Positions 4,416 to 64,000 of a DNA stretch of 64,000 bases are shown one piece after another; position 1 is the first letter of the stretch, and each line of letters starts with the position of its first letter. A model generated the notes under the pieces. That model was given only the letters and a program-made list of their open reading frames with translations. It was not told the DNA's origin and searched no databases. Source of the DNA: Tardiphaga alba (GTDB taxonomy: Bacteria > Pseudomonadota > Alphaproteobacteria > Rhizobiales > Xanthobacteraceae); the NCBI RefSeq assembly GCF_018279705.1, contig NZ_CP036498.1:3985001-4049000 (forward strand), given 5' to 3'. A program made the translations under genes and the position numbers.

Positions 4416-4714
4416 TTAATCGGCTTTCCGCTTACCCGCCCGCCAATCGGCCGGTTTGACGATCTCACCGGATACGGGATCGATCCGAATTTCGACCTCG
4501 GCGCCATGGCTGTCGAAGCCTTCGACTTCCCAGCATCCTTTGCTGCGCTTGGCCTTCTTGACCGCATAGCCCAGCGTTTCGGCTTTCTCGATGGCCTTCT
4601 CGATCGGCATGCCCTGCCCGGCAGCTTCGGACTTGCAGACGATGTCATCGGCATGTGCGCCCCCGCGGCCAAAACAAGCGACGCGGCGATCAGGGCAATG
4701 GCTGGGTATTTCAT
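4416..4714 (-). pseudogene. Secreted PepSY-domain protein, split by a -1 shift in a G-run
   Basis: Translation from the ATG at 4714 gives a perfect signal peptide start (MKYPAIALIAASLVLAAG), then goes out of frame at a run of five G (minus strand) near 4660-4664. Adding one G restores AHADDIVCKSEAAGQGMPIEKA and the complete PepSY domain that remains open to 4416. PepSY domains are small periplasmic regulators, often beside two-component systems, as here. The mature frame is intact, so the break is either a sequencing error, recent damage or tract-length variation. An internal ATG at 4610 would give a protein without export signal. Confidence 0.75.
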
Positions 4715-4772
4715 GGTTCTTTCTCCAAATCGATGAATGACCCGGCTGATGCCATATCGTCGCCGCCGCTTT

Positions 4773-4791
4773 CCTGACACCGCCTGTCAGG
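4773..4791. promoter_or_regulatory. Inverted repeat CCTGACA-N5-TGTCAGG, candidate operator
   Basis: A perfect 7-bp inverted repeat with a 5-base spacer lies between the divergent PepSY gene (start 4714) and the operon that begins at 4849. The position fits an operator read in both directions, perhaps by the OmpR-type regulator encoded at 5488. That assignment is inferred from position. Confidence 0.45.
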
Positions 4792-4848
4792 GAGCCGTCA
4801 GCGAGGCTTCGCTAGGTTCGGGACAGCTCAACCGACCGGAGATGCCCC

Positions 4849-5103
4849 ATGATGCCCGCCATGTTCCTGCTCGCCGTTACGCTGCCTCTGATGGCAGCGG
4901 TCGAATTGCACCTCGACACATTCGTGATCCTGATGATTCTGGTCTGTGCCGTGGCCGGCTTGACGGCACCGGCAGGCGGAGGCCACGCTGCAATGAGGAC
5001 ACGCCGGCCGATGGACGCGCCGAACGATCCTGCCAACGAGACCGATGACAAGCCACTCAACAAGCCGGCACCGCGCATGCGTGAATCCGCCCTCGCTGGA
5101 TGA
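4849..5103 (+). CDS. Small membrane protein, first gene of the PepSY two-component operon
   Basis: The 84-residue frame has high-GC3 codons typical of the neighbours and a GGAG motif just upstream. Residues 3-44 are hydrophobic (one or two membrane helices) and the C-terminal half is Pro/Asp-rich and polar. The family is not recognised. Its stop overlaps a possible ATG (TGAATG) of the next gene, which argues that it is translated within the operon. Confidence 0.5.
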   Translation: MMPAMFLLAVTLPLMAAVELHLDTFVILMILVCAVAGLTAPAGGGHAAMRTRRPMDAPNDPANETDDKPLNKPAPRMRESALAG

Positions 5104-5133
5104 ATGGCCAGACACCAAAACCCGGAGCTCGCG

Positions 5134-5484
5134 ATGATCATCCGCGCCAGCGCAATCACCCGCACCGCGATGCTGATCGGCATCTTGCTGACTGCTCTGG
5201 TCGTCGGCAGCGCCGCGACGCATGTGGCGGTTGCCAAGGATGACAAGTCCGAATGCAAGCGCTCGCAAGACTGTGCCCTGCAGGCGCTCAATAGCGGGGA
5301 TATTCGTCCGTTGACAGAAGTGCTGGCCGTGGCTCGTGACAAGCTGCCTGGCGAGGTCATCAAGGTCGAGCTTGATCGCGACGATGGAGTTTGGGTCTAT
5401 GAGATCAAGGTGCTCACGGCATCCGGCAAACGGCGCGAGATCGAGATCAATGCGCAGACCCTCGCGGTCATCAAGATCGACTGA
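5134..5484 (+). CDS. Periplasmic PepSY-domain protein
   Basis: The ATG at 5134 has a GGAG ribosome site and gives a clean signal segment (residues about 8-32, ending VAVAKDD). The mature part is a PepSY domain: ALNSGDIRPLTEVLAVARDK, then GEVIKVELDRDDGVWVYEIKVL and the final strand LAVIKID. It contains two Cys near the mature N-terminus (ECKRSQDC). It lies 3 bp before the response regulator, so it is probably a co-expressed sensor accessory or a target of the kinase. A longer start at 5104 is possible. Confidence 0.85.
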   Translation: MIIRASAITRTAMLIGILLTALVVGSAATHVAVAKDDKSECKRSQDCALQALNSGDIRPLTEVLAVARDKLPGEVIKVELDRDDGVWVYEIKVLTASGKRREIEINAQTLAVIKID

Positions 5485-5487
5485 CGC

Positions 5488-6153
5488 ATGCGCATTCTGG
5501 TGGTAGAGGACGAACCGCGGATCGCCGCAGATATCCGCAGCGGACTAGAAGCTGCGAACTATGCCGTGGAAACAGTCGTCGATGGCAACGAGGCCTGGTT
5601 CAAGGGCGAGACCGAAGACTATGACGCCATCGTGCTCGATCTCGGCCTGCCCCGCCTCGATGGCCTCACGGTGCTGCGGCGCCTCCGCGAAGCCGGCATC
5701 GCGACGCCGGTTCTGGTGCTGACCGCACGCGACGGCTGGCGCGACAAGGTGGAAGGCATTGATGCCGGTGCCGATGACTATCTGGCAAAGCCGTTCCAGA
5801 TGGAGGAGCTGCTGGCCCGCCTGCGCGCGATTACACGACGCGCCGCTGGACAGGCGTCAGCACTGATCAAGGCCGGCCCGCTCGAACTCGATACCCGCTC
5901 GCAGACCGCCACCATTGATGGCCGCTCGCTTGCGCTGACGGCCATGGAATATCGCCTGCTTGCTTATCTGCTTCTGCATCGCGGGCGCACGATGTCGCAG
6001 GGCGAATTGCTCGAACATATCCATTCCGGCGATGCCGACCGCGACATCAACGCCGTCGAGGCCATCGTCGCACGTTTGCGCAAGAAGCTCGGATTTCCGC
6101 TGATCGAGACCCATCGCGGCCGCGGCTACTGCATTCCGGCGGCGCCATCGTGA
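5488..6153 (+). CDS. OmpR/PhoP-family response regulator
   Basis: The receiver domain has the acid pair Glu7/Asp8, phospho-acceptor Asp51 (VLDLGLP), Thr79 and Lys101 (KPF). It is followed by a winged-helix DNA-binding domain (SLALTAMEYRLLAYLLLHRG through VEAIVARLRKKLG). The 221-residue length is standard. The stop overlaps the kinase start by 4 bp, so the two are translationally coupled. The layout (PepSY, regulator, PhoQ-like kinase) suggests a cation or envelope sensing system. The ligand is not shown by sequence. Confidence 0.95.
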   Translation: MRILVVEDEPRIAADIRSGLEAANYAVETVVDGNEAWFKGETEDYDAIVLDLGLPRLDGLTVLRRLREAGIATPVLVLTARDGWRDKVEGIDAGADDYLAKPFQMEELLARLRAITRRAAGQASALIKAGPLELDTRSQTATIDGRSLALTAMEYRLLAYLLLHRGRTMSQGELLEHIHSGDADRDINAVEAIVARLRKKLGFPLIETHRGRGYCIPAAPS

Positions 6154-7481
6154 ATACGCGTTCGCTCTCGTTCCGGCTCAGTTGTGCAGCGGCGCTGGCC
6201 ATCGCCATCGCGCTCGGTCTCGCTGCGTTCGGCCTGAAGACCATCTTCAATCAGGAAATCGAGCGCCGTGCTGCGGCCGAACTCGGCCAGATCGTCGTCT
6301 CGATTGCGGCTCAGGTGAAGGTGGATGCGAGCGGCGCGCCCTCGCTCGAGACGCCGCTGTCCGATCCGCGCTTTGAGACGCCGTATAGTGGGCTGTATTG
6401 GCAGATCAGTCATGCCGACAATAGCGCGCGATCCCGCTCACTGTGGGACTTCTCGCTCACCGTACCGCATGACCAGCACGGTGACGCACGCTGGACGACC
6501 AATCTCGTCGGTCCCGACCGCGCAAAACTGCTGGCCGTCGTTCAAACGATTGCTGTCACGACTGCGTCGGGATCGGATGCGCGCCTGCAGATCGTCGCTG
6601 CATTGGACAGGTCGGATCTCGCAGCGTCCCAGCAATATCTGTTCAGATTGCTGGTGCTGTCGCTGAGCGCTCTCGGCATCATTCTCGTCATCGCGATGTC
6701 GATCTTCATCCGCCTCGCACTGCGCCCATTCGATGAATTGGGACGCGGGCTGCGGCGCATTCACGCCGGTAGCAGTCGTACGCTCGGCGGCGGCTTCCCG
6801 GACGAAGTGCAGCCGGTGGTCAACGATCTCAATCGCCTGATCGCATTTCAGGATGCAGCGCTGGAGCGAGCCAAAACCCATGCCGCGGATCTCGCCCATG
6901 GATTAAAGACGCCGCTGGCTGTTCTCGGAGCAGTCGCCCGACAAGCACGGCAAGATGATCGGAACGACATCGCCGATCCCATCGACGAGCAGACCTTGCT
7001 GATGAGCAAGCAGGTCGATCGCGTCCTTGCGCGCGCACGCGCTGGTGTCTCGGCCGCACTGAGCCGCGGCGCCATTCCCATAGCACCCGTCGCCGACAAG
7101 ATCGTCCGTGCGCTGCGGCGATTGCCTGACGATCGCGGGCTGCAATGGGACTGCGATATCGCAGCCGATGCCAGCTTTCACGGCGATGACGGCGATCTCA
7201 CCGAGATGCTGGCCAACTTGCTGGACAATGCGCGCAAATGGGCCACGACGCGCGTGTGTCTCATTGTGACGCAGAGCGACGGGGAAACCGTGTTGCGCGT
7301 CGAGGATGACGGCCCCGGCCTGCAGACCGAACAGATGCAGTCGATCGGGCGCGGTCAACGCTGGGACGAGACCCTGCCCGGTACCGGCTTCGGGCTCGCC
7401 ATCACACGCGATCTCGCCGAGGCCTATCGGGGCGGATCGAGCTGGAGAGCTCAAAGCTTGGCGGGCTCAGCGTCGCCGTAA
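6150..7481 (+). CDS. PhoQ-like sensor histidine kinase with a frame-shifted C-terminus
   Basis: Two membrane helices (about residues 8-29 and 165-188) flank a periplasmic sensor region. They are followed by HAMP, an H-box of the HGLKTP type (His250), an N-box (NLLDN, Asn356/Asn360), G1 DDGPG and G2 GTGFG. The last 20 residues are out of family. Adding one G in the run at about 7429-7432 would give RIELESSKLGGLSVAVILP, the normal end of an ATPase domain, with a stop at 7499-7501. The catalytic core is intact in the sequence as given, so the kinase may still work. See the findings on G-run losses. Confidence 0.9.
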   Translation: MNTRSLSFRLSCAAALAIAIALGLAAFGLKTIFNQEIERRAAAELGQIVVSIAAQVKVDASGAPSLETPLSDPRFETPYSGLYWQISHADNSARSRSLWDFSLTVPHDQHGDARWTTNLVGPDRAKLLAVVQTIAVTTASGSDARLQIVAALDRSDLAASQQYLFRLLVLSLSALGIILVIAMSIFIRLALRPFDELGRGLRRIHAGSSRTLGGGFPDEVQPVVNDLNRLIAFQDAALERAKTHAADLAHGLKTPLAVLGAVARQARQDDRNDIADPIDEQTLLMSKQVDRVLARARAGVSAALSRGAIPIAPVADKIVRALRRLPDDRGLQWDCDIAADASFHGDDGDLTEMLANLLDNARKWATTRVCLIVTQSDGETVLRVEDDGPGLQTEQMQSIGRGQRWDETLPGTGFGLAITRDLAEAYRGGSSWRAQSLAGSASP

Positions 7482-7522
7482 TCCTGCCAAGGCCGGCCTG
7501 AGGACCACCCGGCAAAGAAAAA

Positions 7523-7549
7523 GGGAGAGCCTCTGAGAAAGGCTCTCCC
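7523..7549. terminator. Stem-loop after the two-component operon
   Basis: GGGAGAGCC and GGCTCTCCC form a perfect 9-bp stem with a 9-base loop. The A-rich tract lies on the left side, so the T-run exists only on the minus strand. It may end the kinase transcript from the left, or stop transcription arriving from the right. Confidence 0.6.
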
Positions 7550-7911
7550 TGGCCTGATCGATCTTCTCGCGCCGGGCGACGTGTATCGACCATATGGCCG
7601 ACATCCCCACCCCTCCCCGCGCGGTGACCGTCTTGTTTGACGACAACCCTGTGTATCGAAGCGCGCGAAGCGAACCGCTGGAGACAGCCCGCTCCGCTCT
7701 GGAGTGCGAGAAGAATACCTGTTGTCCCCGCGATCTCAAGAACATGGTAAAAATAACCTTAACGACGGAAAGCCAAAGCGACTCAGTGGAAAACGACGTT
7801 TCGGCATGGACGCTGCAATGACCGGTCTGCACAACATGTAGCGGTCGGACATGGATGGATTCGGGACAGACTTGTCCCTGTCGCCAGCTGACCGGGTCAG
7901 GATCAGCGCGC
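7550..7911. other. Intergenic region, no convincing gene
   Basis: About 360 bases follow the stem-loop. Open frames exist on both strands, but they have poor codon use and no recognisable family. The stretch presumably carries the promoter of the PAS gene at 7912. I see no repeat or RNA gene. Confidence 0.5.
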
Positions 7912-8469
7912 ATGAAACATCCATCGAGCCGGAAGTTCTTCGCCTATTGGGACGAAAAACGCGGTTTTGCGCGTGCGCCCGATCGCAGCGAGATCGAACC
8001 CGGCCCGGTTCGGGAACTGCTCGGCGACATTTTCGTGCTCGGTTATGACAAGCCGGCAGGCTTCCCGTTCCGGGTCGCCGGTACCAGAGTTTGCGCCATG
8101 TTCGGCCGCGACTTGAAGAGCGAGTCGTTCCCGCAGCTGTTCGGCGCTGCCGGTCGGAGCGACATCGAGGAGATGGTTACGGTCGTTTCCGAGGAGCTTT
8201 TGGTGGCCGTCGCCGGCGTGACCGCGCATACCGAAACCGGCGACAAGGCCCATCTCGAAATGATGCTGCTGCCTTTCGCCGCGCGGGCCCATACGCCGAT
8301 CAGCCTGACCGGGCTGCTGGCGTCCATGACGCCGGTGATCGGCCGGCTCGGACCGCTTGAAATGACGTCTTTCCGGTATCTCGCCCATCAGCCGCAGCGC
8401 TTCGCGCCGCGTATTTTGCGCAAGCTGCAGGCGGCGCGCGGCCTGATGGTCTATGAAGGCCTGAGCTAA
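7912..8469 (+). CDS. PAS domain protein (PF07310-like, PAS_5)
   Basis: The 185-residue protein matches the compact alphaproteobacterial PAS_5 architecture: FFAYWDEKRG and RSEIEPGPVRELLGDIFVL at the N-terminus, then FPFRVAGTRVCAMFGRDLKS, and a C-terminal PQRFAPRILRKLQAARGLMVYEGL. These proteins are often encoded near PilZ proteins, as here. The start at 7912 follows an AGGA motif and matches the family N-terminus. Its signalling role is unknown. Confidence 0.85.
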   Translation: MKHPSSRKFFAYWDEKRGFARAPDRSEIEPGPVRELLGDIFVLGYDKPAGFPFRVAGTRVCAMFGRDLKSESFPQLFGAAGRSDIEEMVTVVSEELLVAVAGVTAHTETGDKAHLEMMLLPFAARAHTPISLTGLLASMTPVIGRLGPLEMTSFRYLAHQPQRFAPRILRKLQAARGLMVYEGLS

Positions 8470-8529
8470 GCTCCCCCTGGCTGCCAGGCTTGAGAGCCAC
8501 GCGACGTGGTTGCGCCGAAACGGTATTTG

Positions 8530-8545
8530 CTAACGCGCCATTAAC
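8530..8545 (+). promoter_or_regulatory. Near-consensus CtrA box before the PilZ gene
   Basis: CTAA-N7-TTAAC differs by one base from the CtrA consensus TTAA-N7-TTAAC and lies 54 bp before the PilZ start. CtrA controls cell-cycle and motility genes in alphaproteobacteria. Assignment by consensus only. Confidence 0.4.
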
Positions 8546-8598
8546 CTTGCAGGCCTTACGGTCGGTGGCAATTGCTCCGCAGGACCGGCCTGACACCG

Positions 8599-9213
8599 AT
8601 GGCGCTCGCCCAAACCAAATCGATTCTTCCTTCCGCAGAAGAACGGCGACGCTTCCAGCGCGTGAAAGTTCATCTTCTGGGCCGGTACATGCTGCCGGAC
8701 CGTCGTGAATTCCCCTGCCAGGTCATCAACATGTCCCCAGGCGGCCTTGCACTGCTCGGCCCCGGCATCGGCAATATCGGCGACCGCGTCATCGCCTATC
8801 TTGACCATATTGGCCGCGTCGAAGGGAAAGTCACCCGCATCATCGACAACGGCTTCGCCATGACCGTCGGTGCCACGCCCCGGAAACGCGACAAGCTGGC
8901 GGCGCAACTGACCTGGCTGGCCAATCGCGACATCCTCAACCTGCCCGAGGATCGTCGGCACGATCGTATCGTTCCGCGGAACCCAATCGCGGTGCTGACC
9001 CTCGAGGACGGCGTCCAGATGAATGGCCGTATCATCGATCTGTCGCTGTCCGGCGCAGCCATCGCGGCCGAGAAGCGTCCGCCGCTGAACGCCCAGGTCA
9101 TGCTCGGCCGCATCTCGTCTCGCGTGGTCCGTCATCTCGAAGAAGGCTTCGCGCTGGAGTTCGCGCATGAGCAGTCTCCGGATACGTTGGAAGACAGCGT
9201 CAACGCCCGGTAA
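8599..9213 (+). CDS. Tandem PilZ-domain protein
   Basis: Two PilZ-like domains are visible. The first has RRRFQR and INMSPGGLAL; the second has RRHDRIVPR and IIDLSLSGAAI. Both keep the RxxxR and (N/D)xSxxG pattern used to bind cyclic di-GMP. At 204 residues there is no room for an effector domain, so it is probably a soluble c-di-GMP receptor. The ATG at 8599 is preferred to a TTG 27 bp earlier. The upstream CtrA-like box suggests cell-cycle or motility control. Confidence 0.88.
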   Translation: MALAQTKSILPSAEERRRFQRVKVHLLGRYMLPDRREFPCQVINMSPGGLALLGPGIGNIGDRVIAYLDHIGRVEGKVTRIIDNGFAMTVGATPRKRDKLAAQLTWLANRDILNLPEDRRHDRIVPRNPIAVLTLEDGVQMNGRIIDLSLSGAAIAAEKRPPLNAQVMLGRISSRVVRHLEEGFALEFAHEQSPDTLEDSVNAR

Positions 9214-9489
9214 ACGGGAAAGCGCACCAAATCCCGATTTTGCAGCATTGTGAGTGCGCTATCTGCGTCAGCAGATACCGCACGCACATGATCGCCTTAA
9301 CCGCAGCGGTTAACGCGCACGATGCGGGAGATGCACACGTCCCGATTTTCCAGCATTGCAACGATTAACGCGGCAAATTTTATGCGAACTCGATTGCATA
9401 AAATTTGAATCAAGTTCGCCGCGTGTTTGAATCGTAGTCGTCTCAATTGTCGTTCGCCGACTTAGCGGCGACGAAAATCCTTCCTGCCA
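9214..9489. promoter_or_regulatory. Palindrome-rich intergenic region
   Basis: This region holds a hairpin near 9254-9284 (TATCTGC/GCAGATA core) and an odd palindrome TTAACCGCAGCGGTTAA at 9297-9313. An 18-base near-repeat, CCCGATTTTxCAGCATTG, occurs at 9233-9250 and 9341-9358. It probably contains the BTLCP promoter; the functions of the repeats are unknown. Confidence 0.4.
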
Positions 9490-9519
9490 ATGATGGTCCC
9501 AACAAAAACGGGGGCCACA

Positions 9520-10137
9520 ATGGCTGGTAACAAGGGGCGTATCACTGGATTTGTCGTTGCGGCAATCCTGTGCGGACTAACGGTTTCGGCACATGCTGCC
9601 GGCGAAAAACTCTATGCAAGCCTCGGCGACACCACGCGTGCGCCGATCGGTTGGGTCGAATTCTGTTCGGAGAATCCGGTCGAGTGCCGCGGTGGCGCCA
9701 CGCAGCCACGTGACATCGTCATCACGCAGACTGCGTGGAAGGATCTGGTGCGCGTCAATCGTTGGGTCAACGAGACGATCAAGCCGCTCACCGACATGGA
9801 TCATTGGGGCGTGATCGAGAAGTGGTCGCTGCCCGACGATGGCTACGGCGATTGCGAAGACTACGTGCTGCTGAAGCGCAAGATGCTGATCGAGGCTGGC
9901 TGGCCGCGTGAAGCACTGCTGATCACGGTGGTGCGCGACAAGAAGGGCGACGGCCATGCCGTGCTCACCGTGAAGACCAACAAGGGCGAATACGTTCTCG
10001 ATAATCAGAACGAGAATGTGCTGGCCTGGACCGAGACTGGCTACCGCTTCGTCAAGCGTCAGTCGCAGAGCGATCCCAACCAGTGGGTCTCGCTCGGTGA
10101 CAATCGCCCGGCAACCGCCACCGCCAGCGCTCGCTGA
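9520..10137 (+). CDS. Transglutaminase-like cysteine peptidase (BTLCP family)
   Basis: A signal peptide ends near SAHAAG, and the papain-like triad of the BTLCP family is visible: Cys112 in GYGDCEDY, His146 in GDGHAVLTV and Asp161 in LDNQ. Related LapG-type proteases cut large adhesins in the periplasm, often under c-di-GMP control. The tandem PilZ neighbour is suggestive, but no LapD or adhesin gene is present here. The length is normal. The start at 9520 follows a G-rich stretch; 9490 is an alternative. Confidence 0.9.
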   Translation: MAGNKGRITGFVVAAILCGLTVSAHAAGEKLYASLGDTTRAPIGWVEFCSENPVECRGGATQPRDIVITQTAWKDLVRVNRWVNETIKPLTDMDHWGVIEKWSLPDDGYGDCEDYVLLKRKMLIEAGWPREALLITVVRDKKGDGHAVLTVKTNKGEYVLDNQNENVLAWTETGYRFVKRQSQSDPNQWVSLGDNRPATATASAR

Positions 10138-10207
10138 TCACAACAGGAATTGGAGACACGCGACCCGGTCACATCCCCACCCCTCCCCGTCCCAGACCGG
10201 ATCGCGC

Positions 10208-10246
10208 GCGCCCGAGCTTCCCCCAAAGCTCGGGCGCAACTTTTTT
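10208..10246 (+). terminator. Rho-independent terminator of the BTLCP gene
   Basis: A perfect 12-bp stem (GCGCCCGAGCTT / AAGCTCGGGCGC) with a 6-base loop is followed by AAC and six T. It lies about 70 bp after the stop codon. Confidence 0.9.
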
Positions 10247-10306
10247 GACGGTTGAACTGATCTCTTCGAAGCCGCACGAAACGCGTCGCACGGAGACAGT
10301 CATGCA

Positions 10307-10501
10307 TCAGTCGCGACGCGATCGATCGCGATCAGGCTTTCCATCGATTTGATGACCGAACCGTGCAAGCGCAGCGGCCGAGACGCGCCGACCAAACCGA
10401 CGCTCAAATTCGCAAAACATCCATACGAATGCCATCGCCAATGCGCAGACGGTGGCCATGAAGAACAGCGTGAGATGAGAAATATCGAGGATCATGATCA
10501 T
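10307..10501 (-). CDS. Small single-pass membrane protein
   Basis: A 64-residue frame starts MIMILDISHLTLFFMAT. It has one strong hydrophobic helix (residues about 8-27) and a basic C-terminus (RDRSRRD). The family is not recognised. Codon use is acceptable, but the evidence is only an open frame with a membrane helix. Confidence 0.4.
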   Translation of the reverse strand: MIMILDISHLTLFFMATVCALAMAFVWMFCEFERRFGRRVSAAALARFGHQIDGKPDRDRSRRD

Positions 10502-10722
10502 GCGCTCGGTTTTGCAAATCGAAACTCGCAATTGACGAACCAGCCGACCTGACGTCCCCCTCGCGCCTATGAAGCCGCGCTGCCCCCGCAACGCGCGGAT
10601 TAAACTACCGCTGCACCGCAGGTTGCGACTTTAGTAGCACGACTTCGGAATATTCATAACTGCAACGCGCGAAAAGCTCCTCTACGCTGAATGCATAGAG
10701 ACGCGGATATGCGATCACTGCG

Positions 10723-11013
10723 TTATTCGCAGACTTCAACGCGGCGAACACGCCAGCCTTTTGCGGTACGGATGCGTTGATTGGCCAGACGACAGCCGCC
10801 CAGATCTTCATAACGGTAGATCGACGGATAGCCGAAACCATATCCGTAGCGACCATAGCCGTAATAGCCCGGATATCCCCAACCGAAACCGGGACCGCCA
10901 AAACCACGATAGAAGCCGTGTCTGTGAAAACCTCCGCCCGCCGAAGCACTCGTGGGGATCGACATTGCACAAGCAACAGTCACCAAAAATCCCAATATCG
11001 CCTTGCGGAACAT
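10723..11013 (-). CDS. Small secreted Gly/Tyr-rich protein
   Basis: A signal peptide ending ASAGGG is followed by a Gly/Tyr-rich low-complexity stretch (HRHGFYRGFGGPGFGWGYPG) and a C-terminal module with two Cys (LGGCRLANQRI and VRRVEVCE) that may form a disulfide. This is a common exported type in Bradyrhizobium relatives; its role is unknown. Confidence 0.75.
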   Translation of the reverse strand: MFRKAILGFLVTVACAMSIPTSASAGGGFHRHGFYRGFGGPGFGWGYPGYYGYGRYGYGFGYPSIYRYEDLGGCRLANQRIRTAKGWRVRRVEVCE

Positions 11014-11154
11014 TCGCTACTCTCCATCATGCGCAATCGCGCATTGATCATCAGTAGCTATCTATCCGCATTGCGACCATCGTGAAATTCGGCAACCGTC
11101 ACTTATTCGCGAGCTTGCACGCAGCGGATCATATGCGACACGACTATGCCCGCG

Positions 11155-11451: not shown

Positions 11452-11553
11452 GAGAAATCTCCCTTGGCGCATCAACGGCCGGTGATAGCTAGCGTTCCGT
11501 GCCCGGAACGAATTCGGTGCGTGGCGCTTGATTTCACGACAGATGGGCGCGCC

Positions 11554-19698: not shown

Positions 19699-19784
19699 GC
19701 CCCCTTGATGGAATTGGTAGACATACAAGACTTAAAATCTTGAGTCCTCTGGGCGTGCCGGTTCGAGTCCGGCAGGGGGCACCA
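19699..19784 (+). tRNA. tRNA-Leu (anticodon UAA)
   Basis: The acceptor stem GCCCCCT/AGGGGGC, the anticodon arm CAAGA-CTTAAAA-TCTTG with anticodon TAA, a long class II variable arm, the TTCGAGTCC T-loop and an encoded CCA are all present. The 86-base length suits a leucine tRNA. An integrase gene starts 197 bp downstream, so the 3' half is the probable attachment site. Confidence 0.95.
19751..19784 (+). other. Probable attL (3' end of tRNA-Leu)
   Basis: P4-type integrases usually use the T-arm and 3' end of a tRNA gene as attachment core, and this tRNA abuts the integrase gene. The assignment is by position. I found no second copy of this sequence in the window, so the right end is either outside or lost. 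Confidence 0.5.
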
Positions 19785-19980: not shown

Positions 19981-21174
19981 ATGCTCACTGACGCCAAATG
20001 TAGAAACGCAAAGGCTAGGGAGTCGGCCTACAAACTCTCCGACAGCGAAGGTCTCCACCTACTTGTCCGTCCTAGTGGCACAAAGGCTTGGCGCCTTTCC
20101 TACCGTTTCCTTCGCAAACAGAAGTCCCTTGCACTGGGGACTTATCCCGCAGTCGGATTGAGCGCAGCGCGGACAGCCAAGGATGAAGCAAAGCAGTTGC
20201 TGGCGCGCGGCGTTGACCCATCCCACCAGCGCAAGCTTGATCGCAGTGCAACTGAACGATCATACGCGACTACTTTCAAAGCCGTGGCGGATGAGCTCAT
20301 TGCCAAATTCGAGAAGGAGAACTACTCCGCAGTTACCCTGCAGAAAAAGCGATGGCTCGTTTCTTTGGCCGAACCAGAAATCGGCAGTCGCCCCGTAGCA
20401 AGCATCTCTCCACCCGAGTTGCTTGACGCTCTACGGAAAGTTGAGAAGCGAGGCACCTACGAAACTGCAAATCGCCTGCGATCATTTGCGGGATCGGTAT
20501 TCCGGTTCGCGATTGCCACGGGACGAGCCGACCGCGATCCAGCTCAAGATCTCCGGGGCGCACTTATTACCCCTACCGTCAAACATCATGCCGCGATTAC
20601 AGATCCTAAAAAGCTCGGTGCCCTGCTCCGCGCCATCGACGGAATCGATGGCTCATTCATTGTCAAACAAGCACTAAAATTTACACCGTTGGTGTTCGTT
20701 CGTCCTGGCGAACTCCGAGGTGCGAAGTGGACAGAATTCGACCACAAGAGCGCCGTTTGGAGAATTCCGGCCGAACGCATGAAGATGGACCGGGAGCACC
20801 GCGTTCCTCTCGCGCCCCAAGCGCTGCAAATACTTGCGGAGCTGCATCCGATCACTGGCAGCTCGCCGTTCGTGTTTCCCTCGGTCCGCTCTTGGCATCG
20901 ACCGATGTCAGAAAATACGATCAATGCGGCGTTGCGTCGTCTTGGTTACACGGGCGAAGAAATGACGGCTCATGGTTTTAGGACAACGGCATCGACGCTA
21001 CTGAACGAAATGCAAGAATGGTCCCCCGATGTAATAGAAAGGCAGCTCGCCCATCAAGAGCCGAACGAAGCTCGCCGCGCTTACATGCACGCCGCCGAAT
21101 TTTGGAAGGAGCGAGTGAGCATGATGTCGGCTTGGGCGGACTATCTTGACGGAGCTAGACACTTCCCGGCCTGA
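19981..21174 (+). CDS. int: P4-type tyrosine integrase
   Basis: The N-terminal arm-binding domain (DUF4102 type: MLTDAKCRNAKARESAYKLS, then GLHLLVRPSGTKAWRLSYR) is followed by a core-binding domain. The catalytic domain has Arg241 (RPGEL), His331-x-x-Arg334 (HGFR), His358 (LAHQE) and Tyr368. The set is complete, so the enzyme is predicted active. It lies 3' of tRNA-Leu(UAA) in the standard orientation for an integrative element. It would mark the left end of the island. Confidence 0.95.
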   Translation: MLTDAKCRNAKARESAYKLSDSEGLHLLVRPSGTKAWRLSYRFLRKQKSLALGTYPAVGLSAARTAKDEAKQLLARGVDPSHQRKLDRSATERSYATTFKAVADELIAKFEKENYSAVTLQKKRWLVSLAEPEIGSRPVASISPPELLDALRKVEKRGTYETANRLRSFAGSVFRFAIATGRADRDPAQDLRGALITPTVKHHAAITDPKKLGALLRAIDGIDGSFIVKQALKFTPLVFVRPGELRGAKWTEFDHKSAVWRIPAERMKMDREHRVPLAPQALQILAELHPITGSSPFVFPSVRSWHRPMSENTINAALRRLGYTGEEMTAHGFRTTASTLLNEMQEWSPDVIERQLAHQEPNEARRAYMHAAEFWKERVSMMSAWADYLDGARHFPA

Positions 21175-22280: not shown

Positions 22281-22354
22281 AACCTTTTCAGGTCAGCGCC
22301 ATTGCCAAGGCAGCATACGCCGGGTGTCAACCGGCCCTAACGGGGATGATGGAC

Positions 22355-22407
22355 GCGGCGGTTTTGCCGGTTTCTCGTCGCGACAGCAACGCATAGGTAC
22401 GCGTGGC
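22355..22407 (+). repeat. 53-bp direct repeat, copy A
   Basis: This sequence matches 36437-36489 at about 87% with no gaps, including the shared core CGTCGCGACAGCAACGCAT. It lies in a gene-free stretch between the Csp gene and the frameshifted gene at 22494. Confidence 0.7.
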
Positions 22408-22493
22408 AATCTAACCTGTTCCCGGCGTATGCGCTCCCCACAACCTTCAGTAAACTGCCCGGCGTAAACACCTCGATTCGCGCTGGGCAGGGC

Positions 22494-31086: not shown

Positions 31087-32352
31087 TTGCTGTCTCACTC
31101 ATCATCAGAGACATCATCATGCTTGAGCGCATCAGCTTTCAGCTTGCGAACAACCGTGGCCGTTACAGCCACTTCATCGAGGCCGGCGGTGCCGTCGCCA
31201 GTCTCTATCCGCAAGCGGTTCTTCCTCATCGCGCGCCGCGACGGCAAGGCGATTGTCTGGCCGAAGCCCACGCACGGCAAGAAGGGCTCCGGCCTCTCTC
31301 CGTACCGCACGGCGGCGGACATCATTGATTGGAGCATTCCTTGCCCCAGCATCTTTGAGCGTTCTCGCCCGCTGGCGGAGAACACCCTTCGTCGTATCGC
31401 CCGCGGAATTCAGCGTTATGTCATCGACAACGCCGAGCCTTTCATCGTGGAGATTGCCAACAGCAGCAATCCCAATGGCGTCAGCAGCGTGAGTGACCCG
31501 CTCCGCACCGTGACAGCTATGACCAAGGGCGGGACGTTTGCCCTTGCAAGCCCAACCCTGATTCAGACCGGATACGGCGAACGCGAAGGTCAGTCACCGC
31601 GCGTGCCGGGATTAGACAAGCCCCTTGGGACTGTGGTGGCTGGCGGCCAGAAGCATGCACTCGTGTCGGCATTCTTGGCGAAACACTACGGCGGCGTTGT
31701 TGGAATTACCGTTGACGTGCCCACCGGTACCGTGACCACCGCCGACCATCACAGCCTCGTCACCGCTCACATCACGAAATTCCGAACCGGCGCTACCGGC
31801 TCCGCGATTGACGAACCACTTCACACCATCACCGCAGGCGGCTTTCAGAAGCGCGAGGGCGGCAATGGTCATGCGATGGGTTTGGTGAGCGCCTGTCTCA
31901 TGAATATGAAGGGAAAGAGCGTCGGTCAGAAAGCAGGGGAGCCAGCTCGAACAATCACTGCCGGAGCGCCCCATCTCGCAGAGGTGCGCGCCTTCCTCGT
32001 GAAGTATTTCGGGACTGACCAAGATCCACGTCTAGAAGAGCCCCTACACACCGTGACGACAAAGGATCGCTTCGGACTGGTGATGGTGAATGGGGTCGAA
32101 TATCAGATCGTGGACATCGGCATGAGAATGCTTTCGCCGCGAGAGCTGTACCGCGCTCAGGGTTTCCCCGACTCCTACATCATCGACCGCACGAAGGACG
32201 GCAAGCAGCTTTCCAAGGCCGCGCAGGTGCGCATGTGTGGCAACTCGGTGAGCCCGGTGTTGGCGGAGGTGCTGGTGAAAGCAAACCTCTCTGAGAGCAG
32301 CCTTTTCGACATGCCCGCGAACGACGACCTCAAAGCAAGCGCAGCAGCATAG
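31087..32352 (+). pseudogene. 5'-truncated DNA cytosine-5 methyltransferase
   Basis: From about 31195 the frame encodes the C-terminal part of a phage C5-methyltransferase: IRKRFFLIARRDG (motif VIII region), six imperfect repeats of the form (D/E)PL.T(V/I)TA, then RELYRAQGFPDSY (motif IX) and GNSVSPVLAEVL (motif X). Motifs I, IV (PC) and VI (ENV) are absent, so it cannot be an active methylase as it stands. The first 35 codons are Ser-rich and look like the antisense of another gene fragment, marking the junction of a deletion. Confidence 0.7.
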
Positions 32353-47157: not shown

Positions 47158-47537
47158 ATGAGATTAACCTTGGTACTCGCAGCCACTTTGCTGGCCGCCT
47201 CAAGCGCCTTCCCAAGTGCCGGGCCAGCGTCAGCCGCGCCCCTTCTGGCACAGGCTGCACACGCGGACCGGAACGACAACGTCGTCGATATCCGCTGGAG
47301 GGGCGTGGATGGCATCATGGGCATCGTGGGTGGCGCCACGGTTATTATAATCGGGGCCCGGGATGGGGACCGGCTCTCGGCGGCCTTGCTGCAGGAGCGA
47401 TCATTGGTGGAGCGATTGCAAACAGCAACGCGCGAGCGGCCAACGACGAGGCTTACTGCATGAACCGCTACAAGTCGTACGATCCGGGCTCTGGCACCTA
47501 TCTGGGATACGATGGCAACCGGCATCCGTGCCCATAG
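47158..47537 (+). pseudogene. BA14K-family secreted protein, split by a -1 shift in a G-run
   Basis: From the ATG at 47158 comes a signal peptide (MRLTLVLAATLLAASSAFPS and onward). The frame breaks near 47352-47363. One extra G in GCCCGGGATGGGG would give RGWGPALGGLAAGAIIGGA, then YCMNRYKSYDPGSGTYLGYD and RHPCP, the hallmark C-terminus of BA14K/lectin-like proteins. The second part is complete to the stop at 47535-47537. The function of the family is unsettled (surface/immunoreactive proteins in Brucella). A stem-loop follows. Confidence 0.75.
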
Positions 47538-49596: not shown

Positions 49597-49997
49597 ATGA
49601 ATAAACTGCTTTTGACCGCTGCATCGCTGGCCCTGCTCGCATCTCCCGCTCTCGCACAGACTGCGACGACGACACCAGCCGCCCCGGCAGCTACTGCCGC
49701 CAAGTTTGCCACGGTCACAAAGGACGAGATGTTCACGTCGAAGCTCAAGGGGCTCAACGTCATGAACAATCAAAAGGAGACGATTGGCGAAATCAGCGAC
49801 ATTGCCTTTAAGGGCAAGGAGATCAGCGCCTTGATTCTGTCTGTTGGCGGCTTCCTTGGGTAGGAGAGCGCTATGTCGCCGTGGCTCCGGATTCGGTGAA
49901 GATGATGTACGATGCGAAGGCGGAGAAGTGGACCGCCACCATGGATACAAATAAGGACACCCTGAAGAACGCGCCTGAGTTCAAATATCCGAAGTAA
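49597..49997 (+). pseudogene. Secreted PRC-barrel protein, split by a -1 shift in a G-run
   Basis: A signal peptide (MNKLLLTAASLALLASPALA) precedes a PRC-barrel domain (FTSKLKGLNVMNNQKETIGE, KEISALILSVGGFLG). A TAG then follows at 49861. With one extra G in the GGG before it, translation would continue GVGERYVAVAPDSVKMMYDA to a stop at 49995-49997, the full family length. An EcfG-type promoter lies upstream. The gene may be intact in the real genome. Confidence 0.75.
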
Positions 49998-54313: not shown

Positions 54314-54327
54314 TCGGAGGAGACACG

Positions 54328-58267: not shown

Positions 58268-58270
58268 CCA

Positions 58271-58591
58271 ATGTTGCCCGAGGGACGCTACTCTGCATGG
58301 TTCCGAACTGATGATGCCGAAGGAATGGGTGTTATCGAGTTGAAGGCTGGCCGGATTACAGGTGGCGATACCGGCTTGAGCTATTTCGGCACGTATACGC
58401 AGGACCAGGACCAGTTCACGGCGACCATACGAACCGAACGACATTCGCCGGGTGGCATCGCGCTATTCGGTCTGGATGAAATCAACATTACCCTTGCCGG
58501 CAAGTTCAAAGATCGAACAGGTTCGGGCACCGGCCGCGTGAAGCAGGTGCCCGATGTAATATTCAACGTGACGCTAGTACGTATCGACTAA
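58271..58591 (+). CDS. GrlR-like small protein
   Basis: The 106-residue protein is a beta-barrel-like pattern (MLPEGRYSAWFRTDDAEGMG, GVIELKAGRITGGDTGLSYF, GTYTQDQDQF, ALFGLDEINITLAGKF) as in GrlR-type proteins (PF16518-like), known from T3SS regulation in E. coli pathogens but widespread in alphaproteobacteria with unclear roles. It starts 3 bp after the nuclease gene, so both are likely one operon. Confidence 0.75.
   Translation: MLPEGRYSAWFRTDDAEGMGVIELKAGRITGGDTGLSYFGTYTQDQDQFTATIRTERHSPGGIALFGLDEINITLAGKFKDRTGSGTGRVKQVPDVIFNVTLVRID
58461..58556 (+). repeat. Duplicated grlR-end sequence, copy A
   Basis: Two short identical-spacing segments (58461-58478 and 58518-58556) match 59424-59441 and 59481-59519. 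It lies in the end of the GrlR-like gene. Confidence 0.65.
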
Positions 58592-58592
58592 G

Positions 58593-59105
58593 CTACGTGA
58601 TCTCTAAGGCAGTCTTGATGTCATCAAGCGTGACGTCGCCTATAACCCACCAGAAGTAAAGCGAGTCCTCATTCCAATCAATCAGCAGGCCGTCCATCGG
58701 ATAGCGTCCGTCGGACATCTCGTCATATATGCCGTTCCAGACACCGCCGGTCGAAAGCACTGCCGCGCATGTAAAGAGCGAGGCCGAGCACAAATATGCT
58801 TTAGGGTCTTTCGGATCGCTGAGGGGCGCGGGCCCCTCGAAACGACCCACGATAGCCTTCATTAGATAATCGACAAACGTCGTAATTTGCGAGACGGCTT
58901 TTGCCGATAAGCGTTCGATTTCGACCCTTAGTAGTGCGTCGACTGCGACAAAGCACACCGATCCAAAGTTCGGTTCATCTCTATCTTCATCTAGATCTCC
59001 CCAACCGAGTGCGAGCATGGCTCGGCGTGATGATCGAAGTTTCTCTTTTAACTTCACCCGCGTGGCACGCTTCAGAAGCTTTTTCGGAGTTCGTTTATCG
59101 GACAT
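58593..59105 (-). CDS. Hypothetical protein
   Basis: The 170-residue protein starts with a basic stretch (MSDKRTPKKLLKRATRVKLK) followed by a mixed domain (VSQITTFVDYLMKAIVGRF, AYLCSASLFTCAAVLSTGGV, WNEDSLYFWWVIGDVTLDDI). It is not recognised. It ends convergent with the GrlR-like gene, 1 bp apart. Confidence 0.6.
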   Translation of the reverse strand: MSDKRTPKKLLKRATRVKLKEKLRSSRRAMLALGWGDLDEDRDEPNFGSVCFVAVDALLRVEIERLSAKAVSQITTFVDYLMKAIVGRFEGPAPLSDPKDPKAYLCSASLFTCAAVLSTGGVWNGIYDEMSDGRYPMDGLLIDWNEDSLYFWWVIGDVTLDDIKTALEIT

Positions 59106-59196
59106 ATAGTTCTCCTTTTATGGTTAGACCCCGCCCACACTTCCTTTACGCGCGCCTCATTCGGAATCGCGCGATCTGGAAGCTCTGGCCATTCCT

Positions 59197-59403
59197 TCAA
59201 TCGGAGAAGGAAAAGCGGAGCGCGATGGGTGAATAACCTTGGCCGCTTCCTGTCCGCTGGAAACCGATGACCGACATCAGATCATCGGTGCCAGCAGGTG
59301 CGCCGTACTTTGGTGCGCCCTGCTCGGTGACGGTGAACATTAGTTGGCCATCACGATTCCAGCGCTCGGCGATGAGCTCGCCGTTGCAGGCAGGCGCGAT
59401 CAT
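59197..59403 (-). CDS. Small hypothetical protein
   Basis: The 68-residue frame (MIAPACNGELIAERWNRDGQ, LMFTVTEQGAPKYGAPAGTD, DLMSVIGFQRTGSGQGYSPI) looks coding on the minus strand. It adjoins a decayed copy of the GrlR end. Start uncertain. Confidence 0.45.
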   Translation of the reverse strand: MIAPACNGELIAERWNRDGQLMFTVTEQGAPKYGAPAGTDDLMSVIGFQRTGSGQGYSPIALRFSFSD

Positions 59404-59423
59404 TCTGCGCGACAAATCGACAG

Positions 59424-59519
59424 CGCTATTCGGCCTGGATGCAGCCGAACATCGAGCTATCGGGAATCCAAAGAAACAAGCAGGCTCGGGCACCGGCCGT
59501 GTGAAGCAGGTGCCCGATG
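59424..59519 (+). repeat. Duplicated grlR-end sequence, copy B (decayed)
   Basis: ALFGLD-like and GSGTGRVKQVPD-like codons occur at the same 57-bp spacing as in the intact gene. The rest is diverged, so it is probably a degenerate duplicate. Confidence 0.6.
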
Positions 59520-59523
59520 GGTT

Positions 59524-60015
59524 TCACACGCTGGCTAGTTCGCTTACGTCGTCATCACACAATTCCTCAACATCAGCTGCCGCATACGCCTCTTCATCAA
59601 AGTATTCGTATGCGGCCATGAGGTCATCCAGTTCGGCCGGTATCGGATCGTGGCCCCTGTAGAGTTCTGTTCCGAACTCTATCCACGTGGCGCCCGACAA
59701 GGTGATGATCATAAATTTCATAAGCTCTGTACCTGCGCACAGCAGCTCATATCGCTTGTCATTGAAGTAGTCGCGAACATCTCGAGCTTCCACCGATTGC
59801 ACTAGGAAATTGAACGCAATCAATTCAGATCGAAGCCTTCGCAGTTTGCGGCCTCTTTGGGAAACGATGTTCTCAAACAAACGTACGTCGGCAGCGATCC
59901 ACAATAGTCGGTTCGAAAAGAGTGCGAACGCCTTTAGCTCATTGCCAACTTCAAGATGCTCATTGATGCGTCGACCCGTGCTCAGATACTTTCTTCTCAT
60001 CTCGTTTGTCTCCAT
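59524..60015 (-). CDS. Hypothetical protein, paralogue of 60330
   Basis: The 163-residue protein is helical (RINEHLEVGNELKAFALFSN, RLLWIAADVRLFENIVSQR) with an acidic end (AAADVEELCDDDVSELASV). It aligns with 60330 over the N-terminal half. The family is unknown. Confidence 0.6.
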   Translation of the reverse strand: METNEMRRKYLSTGRRINEHLEVGNELKAFALFSNRLLWIAADVRLFENIVSQRGRKLRRLRSELIAFNFLVQSVEARDVRDYFNDKRYELLCAGTELMKFMIITLSGATWIEFGTELYRGHDPIPAELDDLMAAYEYFDEEAYAAADVEELCDDDVSELASV

Positions 60016-60329
60016 TCAGGTTAAAAGCAGCCCACGAAGCTTTTACCTATCGCATCGACCCGAATGAGCTTAGCGCACGCCCTGTGATCGGCGACACCAC
60101 AGCGAGCACCTGCCGATCCGATAGGTCAATGCGATGGAGCTTCACAGGGCTGGATTTCGAGCCATTTCTTTTTCGCGTTAGATATTTTCCGTACGCGCGA
60201 AATGACCGCTGAATGTGGATTGGCGCTTCGAGCCCTCCATGTTCTCTGACAAAATAGGCGGGCAATCATGCCCGCCCAGCCATTTTGCTCGAACTGATTT
60301 AGCTCAATTTAGAAAGATCAGGAATGAGC
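60016..60329. other. Spacer between the paralogous genes
   Basis: About 310 bases hold a terminator near 60252-60276. One minus-strand frame (60047-60265) is open for 72 codons but starts inside the terminator stem, so I do not call it. Confidence 0.5.
60252..60276 (-). terminator. Terminator after the 60330 gene
   Basis: GGCGGGCA and TGCCCGCC pair with a 4-base loop; on the minus strand TATTTTG follows. Confidence 0.75.
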
Positions 60330-60737
60330 TTATGATTCGAAGAATTCGCAATGCACCATTAGGTCCTTGATATCTTGCGGTACAGCCTCCTCCCCTAACT
60401 CAAAATCGACAGCATCGATCGTCCATCGACCGCCAGACGACGTCGTCTGCAAGAAGTTTGCGAGTTGGCTTGCGCAGAAAAATAATCGACGCTGTCTCTC
60501 GATGTAGTGACGCTTGAGTGGCGCCTTCGGTAGAGATTTCGCGATGGTCAAGAATTCGGTGACTTCCTGCTGCATCTGCTCCAATTTGCGGCGATCAGCG
60601 GCATCAACTTTCTCCACAAGGCTATGCCGTGCCATGAGGCACAACACCTTGCTGCTGAATAAAAATAGCGCCTTCATTGAGTTGCCCTTACCTAATTGGT
60701 CGAGAAGTTCTTCATTGAAGGTCATCACGTCGATCAT
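60330..60737 (-). CDS. Hypothetical protein, paralogue of 59524
   Basis: The 135-residue protein (FNEELLDQLGKGNSMKALFL, FSSKVLCLMARHSLVEKVDA) shares the pattern L..G...KA..LFS..LL/VL with 59524. A terminator lies between the two. The upstream region holds the promoter. Confidence 0.6.
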   Translation of the reverse strand: MIDVMTFNEELLDQLGKGNSMKALFLFSSKVLCLMARHSLVEKVDAADRRKLEQMQQEVTEFLTIAKSLPKAPLKRHYIERQRRLFFCASQLANFLQTTSSGGRWTIDAVDFELGEEAVPQDIKDLMVHCEFFES

Positions 60738-60868
60738 GTTTTCTCTCCTTGCGTGGTTGCGCGACCAAATTAGTTCGGTCGATATCCTTTACTTGCGTGT
60801 ACATGCCCGGGGATGCGATCTGTCAGTCAACCATTCTTGCGGTTCACCACCTGAGCGGATCCAACGTG

Positions 60869-61768
60869 TTAAGAGTCTTCTTCAGGCGTGAAGTGATCGC
60901 GGAATGCTGACTGACGCTTGGAGCGCAAACGATGGGGCAACCGGCGCAACGCTTCCTCTTTGATTGCTTTCAGGATGGGTTTTCCTGCACCGCCAGCGAA
61001 TACCCACTTGTCGAGGTGTGCATTCTGCATGAGCGCCCGAACCTTGATCGCCAGGCCGGGATTGGCAGGTTTATCTCGCTGACGGAACGCCCCGGTAGGC
61101 TCTTTCTGCACCATGCCATCCTCGTCGACACGCTCGCGCATGACGGGATAAGCACGATAGTTTTTGACAATGCCCTTCAACGGATACAGTAGGACCCACT
61201 TCAGGTCGCTCGCTGCGATTAGCTCTTTGTGAAAGGCTGGGCGGCTTGGAAGCAAGCTCGAATAGGCGCGATTGGCCTCCGCAAACCGCTGCTCCAGCGC
61301 GACAATATCAGGCGAAAACACGATCGCGTGGACGTGATAATGATAAGCGTGACCGCGAAGCAGCAGATATTGCCAATTCGTGTACGGAGCGATCTCCACG
61401 TTGGCGATGTAATCGAAGCCAGTCAGAACCCTCTTTGCCCAACGGTGGATGTGGCGAACGTCGAACTCCATCGCGTGATCGAAGGACATGGCGAAGTCGC
61501 TAGGTGTCAGCGTGACGAGGTAGCATTGCCGACGGTGGCCATACTTGAACCCTTCGCGCAGCCAAATTTTTGCAAAATTAACCCGCGCTTGAAGGTTATT
61601 GGCGGCCAGAAAAGGCGCATCGCGCTTCCGCAGCTCCCTCAGCAACGCCTTCTTCTCCTTCCGGGTTTTTCGGCAGTACCCTGATCGGATATGCTTCTTC
61701 AGCTTCTGGAATTGCTCATTATGCTTGGCCCAGAAAACGGGCCATGCGACATCGTTTCGTGGATGCAT
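60869..61768 (-). CDS. Candidate HUH-type Rep protein
   Basis: The 299-residue protein has motif-1-like YLVTLTPSDF (about 83-92), a clear HUH (HAYHYHVHAIV, His145-Val-His147) and motif-3-like YPLKGIVKNY with Tyr195/Lys198 and Tyr204. It fits rolling-circle Rep or relaxase-like initiators. These nick DNA and stay covalently linked through Tyr. It is next to the AlpA-like gene by operon direction. The assignment is motif-based. Confidence 0.65.
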   Translation of the reverse strand: MHPRNDVAWPVFWAKHNEQFQKLKKHIRSGYCRKTRKEKKALLRELRKRDAPFLAANNLQARVNFAKIWLREGFKYGHRRQCYLVTLTPSDFAMSFDHAMEFDVRHIHRWAKRVLTGFDYIANVEIAPYTNWQYLLLRGHAYHYHVHAIVFSPDIVALEQRFAEANRAYSSLLPSRPAFHKELIAASDLKWVLLYPLKGIVKNYRAYPVMRERVDEDGMVQKEPTGAFRQRDKPANPGLAIKVRALMQNAHLDKWVFAGGAGKPILKAIKEEALRRLPHRLRSKRQSAFRDHFTPEEDS

Positions 61769-61920
61769 GAGGCACCTATCGATTGAGGATTGTGTACGGG
61801 GGTGTGGTCAACAGGGCCTAGCGGGCTTAATCGATAAGCTGGATAGGCCTATTGGTGAGGTGTCGGTGGGGGAAGTGGGGTTACAGGTAACCGCCCCACC
61901 AAAGGTCCTTTACCTGCCGA

Positions 61921-62517
61921 TTAGCCGGGAGGAGCACGGCCGGGTACGCGCTGGATAACTTTCTCTGCGTCTAAATTGTAACCGTCATCAACACATCGGC
62001 GGCGTCGGCGATGAGGGCGGACGGGCGCGGTCACCGATATGAAAATGCGCGTTCGCTGGTCGGCTATAACTTCGAAATTCCGGCGCTCGCCGATCTCAAG
62101 AGTCTCCTCAAAACTCCGATGACCTGCCTCACCGCCGATGCGAACAACCGTCTGGGCCATTTCGACGACCTTCAGCGCCGCCCTAGTTTTGCGTTTCGAC
62201 GTGTTAATCTGCGCAGAGGCTTCAAGAAAAGCCGGTATTTGTTCGGCCGGAATCCGCTTCTCAAATGCGGGCTCCAAGCGCTTCGCCCACTCGCTTGCCC
62301 ATGCACGCTGAGCTTTGGAGTTTCCACGTATCGCGATTAGTGCAAACCGCAGAACGTTATCGCCATTCGCCTTTGGCCGTGGGTACCCTTCCCAAAACTG
62401 ATCGTCTCGAAACTTAAGCAGCGCCTCAGTATCCTGCCGAAGCGTATTCGCCACTTCATAAGCTGACGCGATTAGATTGCGTCTAGCAACGGTCTCAGCT
62501 TGGTCGAGTGCACTCAT
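61921..62517 (-). CDS. Hypothetical protein
   Basis: The 198-residue protein begins MSALDQAETVARRNLIASAY and contains RFALIAIRGNSKAQRAWASE and KTRAALKVVEMAQTVVRIGG, then a basic region. It starts 12 bases after GGGGAGG. A mobile-element type of unknown role. Confidence 0.55.
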   Translation of the reverse strand: MSALDQAETVARRNLIASAYEVANTLRQDTEALLKFRDDQFWEGYPRPKANGDNVLRFALIAIRGNSKAQRAWASEWAKRLEPAFEKRIPAEQIPAFLEASAQINTSKRKTRAALKVVEMAQTVVRIGGEAGHRSFEETLEIGERRNFEVIADQRTRIFISVTAPVRPHRRRRRCVDDGYNLDAEKVIQRVPGRAPPG

Positions 62518-62525
62518 TGCATTGT

Positions 62526-62729
62526 TCAACCTCCCCAACATTTGGAGGGGCCAACGCGAGCGATATCGGCATTAGCAATTATCCGCGTCTGCAGTTCAAT
62601 TGCATCGGCGAAATCTTCCGGCTCGATAATCGGGAATCCGGAATTTTTCCCGAGCTTTTCGCCAATCTGCGCCGCGTGCGGCTCCGGATTGCCGCGACCA
62701 GCCGAGCTTTTGATGGACTCACTTGTCAT
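62526..62729 (-). CDS. Small hypothetical protein
   Basis: The 67-residue frame (SAGRGNPEPHAAQIGEKLGK, FPIIEPEDFADAIELQTRII) ends just before the gene at 62517. TCCTGACA is present near 62737 upstream. Unknown function. Confidence 0.5.
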   Translation of the reverse strand: MTSESIKSSAGRGNPEPHAAQIGEKLGKNSGFPIIEPEDFADAIELQTRIIANADIARVGPSKCWGG

Positions 62730-62793
62730 CGCTGTGTCCTGACAATTATTTTACTGATGGTATTACGGAGGATCTCCGCTGACCGCCCACCTG

Positions 62794-63114
62794 TCAGTCC
62801 GAATCTAACTTCGTGCCGCTGCTCATATTGCTGGCTGGCGATGAGTTGCCGTCGTACAGAGCACGCACGTTGGCGTGTCGCGCTCGATCGCTCGCCGCCT
62901 TCAGGAAGGCGCGAACGCTCGCGACCTGTACTACAGTCACGCGCTCAGACAACTTGAGGGTCGCGAGCCTTCCTTCGGCGATCCATTTCCATACTGTCGA
63001 TCGTGACACGCCATGGACAGGGCCACCAACAGCGTACAGCCGCTCGATACGCACGGTGCCAGTAGCTGGCAGCCCGTCATCAAGTATTTTCGGAATTTGA
63101 GATTCATCATCCAT
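62794..63114 (-). CDS. AlpA-like helix-turn-helix protein (excisionase type)
   Basis: The 106-residue protein contains the winged-helix excisionase core (IERLYAVGGPVHGVSRSTVW, KWIAEGRLATLKLSERVTVV). AlpA/Xis-type proteins control excision of integrative elements. It supports a mobile-element origin of the right region. The start is 63114. Confidence 0.8.
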   Translation of the reverse strand: MDDESQIPKILDDGLPATGTVRIERLYAVGGPVHGVSRSTVWKWIAEGRLATLKLSERVTVVQVASVRAFLKAASDRARHANVRALYDGNSSPASNMSSGTKLDSD

Positions 63115-63200
63115 ACCTGAACGATGAACCAATTCTGCAGAGAGTATTAGCTGTTTCTAATTCCGCGAATTCTGAGAATTTCCCAGATTTTTTCTGCGGA

Positions 63201-64000
63201 TTATTCTGCCAGGAAAGGGGTATTGATAAATTTCCCAACCAATTCACGAAGTTCTTCGCGAGAATTATGGAAGCCAACCACAACGGATTTCTTTCTCCGT
63301 CCCCCGCCTCCCGTAGGCAATGCACAGCGCAGTTTCATGTAGATTGACGTATTGAACAGGTCACGGCCCATATGCCGACTAAGATGGGGGCGGAGCAAAT
63401 CCCAAAGCGGTTCAAAGGGAATCAGGGTCCCATGTTCTTCGGCGAATTCCTCTATCAGTGTGACGAGGCCGTCGATTTCAAACTCGCACAGTTCTGTTCG
63501 TTTCTTCTTTGACTTCTTAGCCCGCAAAAGGCGGGCAATTTGGGCCTGCTTAAGTACCACGTACAGCATGGAGCGCTTCGGCCAGGTCTCGGGGTCACGA
63601 ACAACTCCAGCGAACAGAACTAACCGCAGATCGTCGAGCCAATAAGGCAGCGACTTGATATCGAACGGTCGTGGAGGGCCCTTACCATCCCAGCCAAAGG
63701 CCGTTGCTTTTCCCGAATTGATTGCATCGAACAACACACGACAAGATGCAGCGAACGTCCTTCCGACCGTAAGATAGTGCCGCCCTCGATAAGCGACCTT
63801 CTTTGCAGTAAGATTTTTCGAAAGCGGCGAATACACGTCCCGCGCTAATGTCCGCTCTCCCATTACACGATATGGCAACAGCCTCCAGGCTCGCCCTGCC
63901 CCCAAGATCGCCCATGCATCCCCTCACCAATAATGTTCAACGCATCGTGTACTGCGACGAAGGTCTTGGGCGCCTGTTTGTTGATGTACTTCAGCAAATG
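63201..64000 (-). pseudogene. Hypothetical mobile-element protein, split by a -1 shift in a G-run and cut by the window edge
   Basis: The right-hand piece (KYINKQAPKTFVAVHDALNI and IGEGMHGRSWG) is in frame from 64000. The left piece, from about 63905, continues GRAWRLLPYRVMGERTLARD to 63201. The join is a run of five G (minus strand) at about 63901-63905; a sixth would restore WGAGRAWRLLP. No family is recognised. The N-terminus lies outside the window. Confidence 0.65.

Follow-up and report, generated by a model that had tools for sequence, protein, structure and literature searches.

False homopolymer deletions are a known residue of long-read assemblies. In a Pseudomonas nanopore assembly, the errors fall at homopolymers of two to eight, most of them after four to five, and A/T runs carry about twice the errors of G/C runs, according to the available part of that report (PMC12007338). 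Bacteria deficient in mismatch repair offer the second comparison: in mutS-deficient Vibrio, one species has a slight deletion bias and the other has slightly more insertions, in the available excerpt of PMC5854121.

The window analysed here is a stretch of 64,000 nucleotides of the Tardiphaga alba record (genome G000), positions 3985001-4049000 of a single-contig chromosome of 5.86 Mb, which is rated 99.7% complete. Its frame breaks resemble those of the Pseudomonas assembly, as far as the latter is described in the available part of PMC12007338, in being mostly deletions at homopolymers, in splitting many genes and in leaving the relatives whole, and differ from them in that A/T runs are not enriched in T. 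alba and are hit more in Pseudomonas. With the mismatch-repair-deficient bacteria they share single-base homopolymer events at a rate that rises with run length, whereas the indels there are near-balanced and those of T. alba are deletion-dominated and confined to G/C runs, with mutS and mutL intact (PMC5854121, same excerpt). Almost certainly, the T. alba breaks are single-base deletions left over in the deposited consensus, in which homopolymer length was undercalled at short G/C runs.

The original prediction was that five genes of the window each lack one base at a G run, through sequencing error or real slippage. It holds at four of the five, which are sites 1, 2 and 4 and, with a corrected place, site 3; site 5, near 63.9 kb, is unconfirmed. 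Table 1 gives the positions of the five sites and of the other features discussed.

Table 1. Features of the T. alba window, in window coordinates
Feature	Position	Strand	Remark
Segment missing in four relatives	3695-4438		about 0.74 kb
Addiction-module antidote protein (dnstrm_HI1420)	4001-4402		inside the segment above
Site 1, PepSY gene	4416..4714	-	two frames joined at a G/C run, near 4.66 kb
Site 2, sensor histidine kinase	6150..7501	+	C-terminus changes frame after about 7.43 kb
Genomic island	19699-64000		about 44 kb; continues to L191 2174-2193, just beyond the window
tRNA-Leu	19699-19784	+	left end of island
tRNA-Leu 3' end, left border repeat	19764..19784	+	second copy beyond window one G shorter
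Tyrosine integrase	19981-21174		downstream of tRNA-Leu
Rhizobiales sRNA Atu_At1 (RF02496)	22315-22426		85.6 bits
C5-cytosine methylase-like frame	31087-32352		421 aa
Site 3, BA14K-like gene	47158..47537	+	signal-peptide-like start and BA14K domain in different frames
Site 4, PRC-barrel gene	49597..49997	+	two frames meeting at 49860, short G run
Site 5, hypothetical gene	63201..64000	-	possible frame switch near 63.9 kb, unconfirmed

The stretch around sites 1 and 2 is common to four members of the genus, with DNA identity of 77-82%. At both sites, alignment with the four relatives L051-L054 leaves T. alba alone one base short, as had been proposed for the PepSY gene and for the kinase end. 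The signal peptide of the PepSY gene is in one frame and its PepSY_2/PepSY domains are in the next, in the downstream piece. The kinase retains its HisKA and HATPase_c domains, and the last 20 or so residues alone are in a different frame; the proteins of genomes G012 and G009 likewise need two frames to match T. alba there. The segment next to site 1 that is missing at the same place in four relatives is probably an inserted toxin-antitoxin pair, since it contains the antidote protein. Loci of Afipia, Nitrobacter and the other named loci show no break in the gene at 40-43 kb and match little else of the window.

Site 4 is mapped by its homologues, which have 60-71% identity and whose orthology is unproven. 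Fifteen of 16 homologous loci, one of them an intact T. alba paralogue (L027), match in tblastn in two collinear pieces, one in frame 1 and one in frame 3, which join at 49860, where the PRC-barrel break had been predicted, and cut the PRC domain; the sixteenth, the partial contig L017, gives no match. The BA14K gene of site 3 is also broken, with its Pfam BA14K domain (E 4.5e-15) in the downstream frame only. This frame is matched in tblastn by all six homologous loci at 41-63% identity and the upstream frame by one of the six (L020, 37% identity). When the two pieces are scored separately against four homologues, the switch falls at about 47.26-47.30 kb, which is some 50-90 bases before the predicted 47.35 kb; the upstream piece is short and signal-peptide-like and scores low (48-91 against 230-245 for the other). 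At site 5, the codon-usage frame preference changes weakly near 63.9 kb, and no homologue is found in 17 genus relatives, 296 other genomes of the order and 72,556 plasmid records. Broken forms in relatives, which had been named beforehand as the sign that would speak against recent damage or error, are absent at sites 1, 2 and 4.

Sites 3, 4 and 5 are on a genomic island that is inserted at tRNA-Leu and bordered by a repeat of 20-21 bases. The last 21 bases of the tRNA-Leu, which as a whole is 100% identical in eight relatives, recur 44.4 kb downstream, alike in all but one G of the five-G run. Between the two ends of a single island there is thus a difference of the kind seen at the frame breaks, here outside protein-coding DNA, which supports the undercalling of G/C runs and is not proof of it, as the right border is unconstrained and a real change there is possible. 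The island carries genes for a TRAP transporter, a mechanosensitive channel, two-component, universal stress and DUF2254 proteins and an NhaA-type antiporter, besides the sRNA Atu_At1. The match of its 421-aa frame to the C5-cytosine methylase family is limited to about the final 53 positions of the profile, and the frame is either degenerate, divergent or another frame-broken gene.

With sites 3, 4 and 5 on the island and the other two outside, the breaks take no account of its border. This bears on the reading that a few dispensable or island genes are simply decaying as pseudogenes, which would suit the mobile setting of sites 3-5 and the dispensable look of the PepSY, BA14K and PRC-barrel genes. 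Its probability is close to nil, given the two sites outside the island and the same breaks in core genes across the chromosome; decay would also be expected to leave stops and indels of every size.

The survey of the chromosome covered five stretches and the matching stretches of genome G013. It used two-frame tblastn to pick out genes with a single frame in either genome and two adjacent frames in the other one; a minus break is a net shift of -1 modulo 3. In 616 gene comparisons over 600.9 kb of coding sequence, T. alba shows 37 breaks of the minus type and 5 of the plus type. With the reading frames of T. alba as queries, G013 has 7 minus and 13 plus (633 comparisons, 599.9 kb), and at least some of these plus events mirror T. 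alba losses, because the queries are the broken frames of T. alba itself. Events in the first 45 residues take in some start-site noise; without them, the counts are 32 minus and 4 plus in T. alba and 3 minus and 7 plus in G013. Of the minus events of T. alba, 27 of 37 have a net shift of exactly -1, and of its plus events three of five have one of exactly +1; the corresponding numbers in G013 are three of seven and seven of 13. Minus events occur in every one of the five stretches (15, 2, 3, 7 and 10 in 190, 75, 87, 105 and 145 kb). Neutral queries point the same way, with six exactly -1 events in T. alba and none in G013 for the proteins of G012, and seven and two, respectively, for those of G009.

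The raw blastn gap listing (101 events in T. alba, 97 in G013) is noisy at gene ends and starts, and the two-frame search was therefore adopted in its place. After filtering, the blastn gaps are 20 of -1, 9 of +1 and 1 of +2 in T. alba, and 8 of -1 and 12 of +1 in G013. A comparison of runs between exact anchors, which kept few runs, finds coding G/C runs of three or more shorter in T. alba eight times and in G013 three times, and A/T runs of three or more shorter in T. alba once and in G013 four times; its direction agrees with G/C-run loss in T. alba and is weak alone.

The breaks exceed chance as a chromosome-wide pattern, with one break in roughly every 16-19 kb of coding sequence. Extrapolation from 32 to 37 breaks per 601 kb puts the total for all coding sequence of the chromosome at about 270-310. 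The window is expected to hold about 2.9 breaks, and since five or more have a probability of 0.17, five breaks in 64 kb are no local excess. The pattern is genome-wide rather than a trait of the five genes. A local hot spot of six breaks in about 34 kb, at 3.958-3.992 Mb, was post hoc and was set aside.

The run context separates the two base classes. Thirty of the 37 minus breaks lie at a G/C run of at least three (8.4 expected at random places in the same stretches) and 19 at one of at least four (1.7 expected). Two touch an A/T run of three or more (5.5 expected), so A/T runs are not enriched. By called length, broken runs number 11 of 20271 for length three, 11 of 3571 for four, 6 of 644 for five and 2 of 46 for six, and the rate climbs with length; the absolute per-run rates are underestimates, because runs beyond the compared genes are counted in the denominators. 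The broken runs are 15 G and 15 C on the plus strand. G/C runs of six or more also seem rarer in T. alba, with counts of about 38 in 864 kb, compared with 63 in 800 kb of G013 (three stretches), a scarcity that A/T runs of six or more do not have and that is in line with shortened G/C runs.

The methylase-like gene in the window prompted a test of a methylation motif as the cause. Nothing is prominent among 454 4- and 5-mers near the broken runs, the top one being GCCGC (8 seen, 3.1 expected, nominal P 0.014), and this cause was rejected.

Programmed frameshifting or transcriptional slippage could make full-length protein from the broken genes, and a -1 ribosome shift has the right direction. 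There is next to no probability of it: the genes involved are of unrelated kinds and are single-frame in the relatives, so the shift is not conserved, and they share no slippery motif, their contexts being alike only in the G/C run.

Conserved genes are not simply spared. By rising class of amino-acid identity, minus breaks number 1, 8, 7 and 3 in 47.0, 114.5, 99.5 and 98.4 kb of three stretches, the top class (3 in 98 kb) being identity of 95% or more; purifying selection could also give the mild dip in this class, though the class of lowest identity has just the one break in its 47 kb. Ribosomal protein L11 (rplK) needs two frames in T. alba. Of 17 relatives, 16 pass the family cut-off with it, and the remaining one has it in two pieces on two contigs. 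XerD is likewise split in T. alba; 16 of 17 relatives pass the cut-off for it, and the exception, a genome of 680 contigs, also has it in two pieces. ClpA is split too, the two sides of the break having 99 and 97% identity, and GlnD is hit near its start, the region in which the method is least reliable. A ribonucleotide reductase alpha gene is broken in T. alba and a single frame in ten relatives; its loss alone need not be lethal, because T. alba has a second, whole reductase-like frame of 1320 aa. L11 and ClpA are dispensable in E. coli, and the argument from core genes is therefore a sum of cases; none of the broken genes is proven lethal when lost. The hits to conserved genes, together with one non-coding border repeat that differs by one G, would be compatible with damage blind to gene importance and to coding or non-coding DNA, the non-coding sample being small. 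The family search listed no 23S gene in T. alba nor in 13 of 17 other genomes, and seems unsuited as an rRNA control.

Real slippage at G tracts would mean a mutator lineage or culture that deletes single G/C bases in short runs, with about 300 genes truly broken. In its favour, the breaks are confined to T. alba, and in the available excerpt of PMC5854121 the rate rises with run length in mutS-deficient Vibrio too and wild-type Vibrio indels favour deletions two- to threefold. A mutator of this kind would be expected to have a broken or missing mutS or mutL, but the open frames of T. alba are whole, at 912 aa for mutS and 641 aa for mutL, both without internal stops. Insertions would be expected too, but the sign is nearly pure (37 against 5, and 27 exactly -1 against 3 exactly +1), A/T runs are spared and the breaks extend to conserved single-copy genes, rplK and xerD among them. 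In-frame stops are without excess: candidates number 7 in T. alba with G013 queries and 12 in G013 with T. alba queries, and several resemble antisense or leader frames. Taken together, these results make real slippage highly improbable. A variant in which a G/C-specific process made real deletions at about 300 runs despite intact mutS and mutL, with L11, XerD and ClpA made via slippage, is extremely improbable.

Systematic homopolymer error, one of the two causes first put forward, is thus well supported. It brings together the single sign, the G/C runs, the dependence on run length, the spread over the chromosome and over core genes and mobile island alike, the intact relatives, the intact mutS and mutL and the hits in conserved single-copy genes. 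Against undercalling count the completeness rating of 99.7%, the sparing of A/T runs, unlike the nanopore case in the available part of PMC12007338, the fact that no broken gene is proven lethal when lost, and the mild dip of the breaks in the most conserved class. Sequencing or assembly would undercall the length of G/C homopolymers and leave single-base deletions in the consensus along the chromosome, and intact genes would then appear frame-broken on paper. The broken-looking genes are most likely alive in the organism, and from sequence comparison we infer that the fault is in the record rather than in the DNA. As a guess, an imperfectly polished long-read assembly would fit as its source.

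The breaks are very probably an artefact, ordinary in kind and useful as a warning about this genome. By extrapolation, about 270-310 of its genes look broken, and pseudogene counts, inferred lost functions and searches for phase variation or odd small genes would be misled. Other T. alba findings that rest on frame breaks or on fused or short frames should be discounted pending a check of the reads, and a frame test based on relatives can flag such genomes. Apart from the breaks, mutS and mutL are at 1.10 and 4.71 Mb in T. alba and at 4.92 and 1.43 Mb in G013, in opposite orientation and mirrored places, and the two genomes are collinear at 2.3 and 3.6-4.0 Mb, which points to a large inversion across the start of the record.
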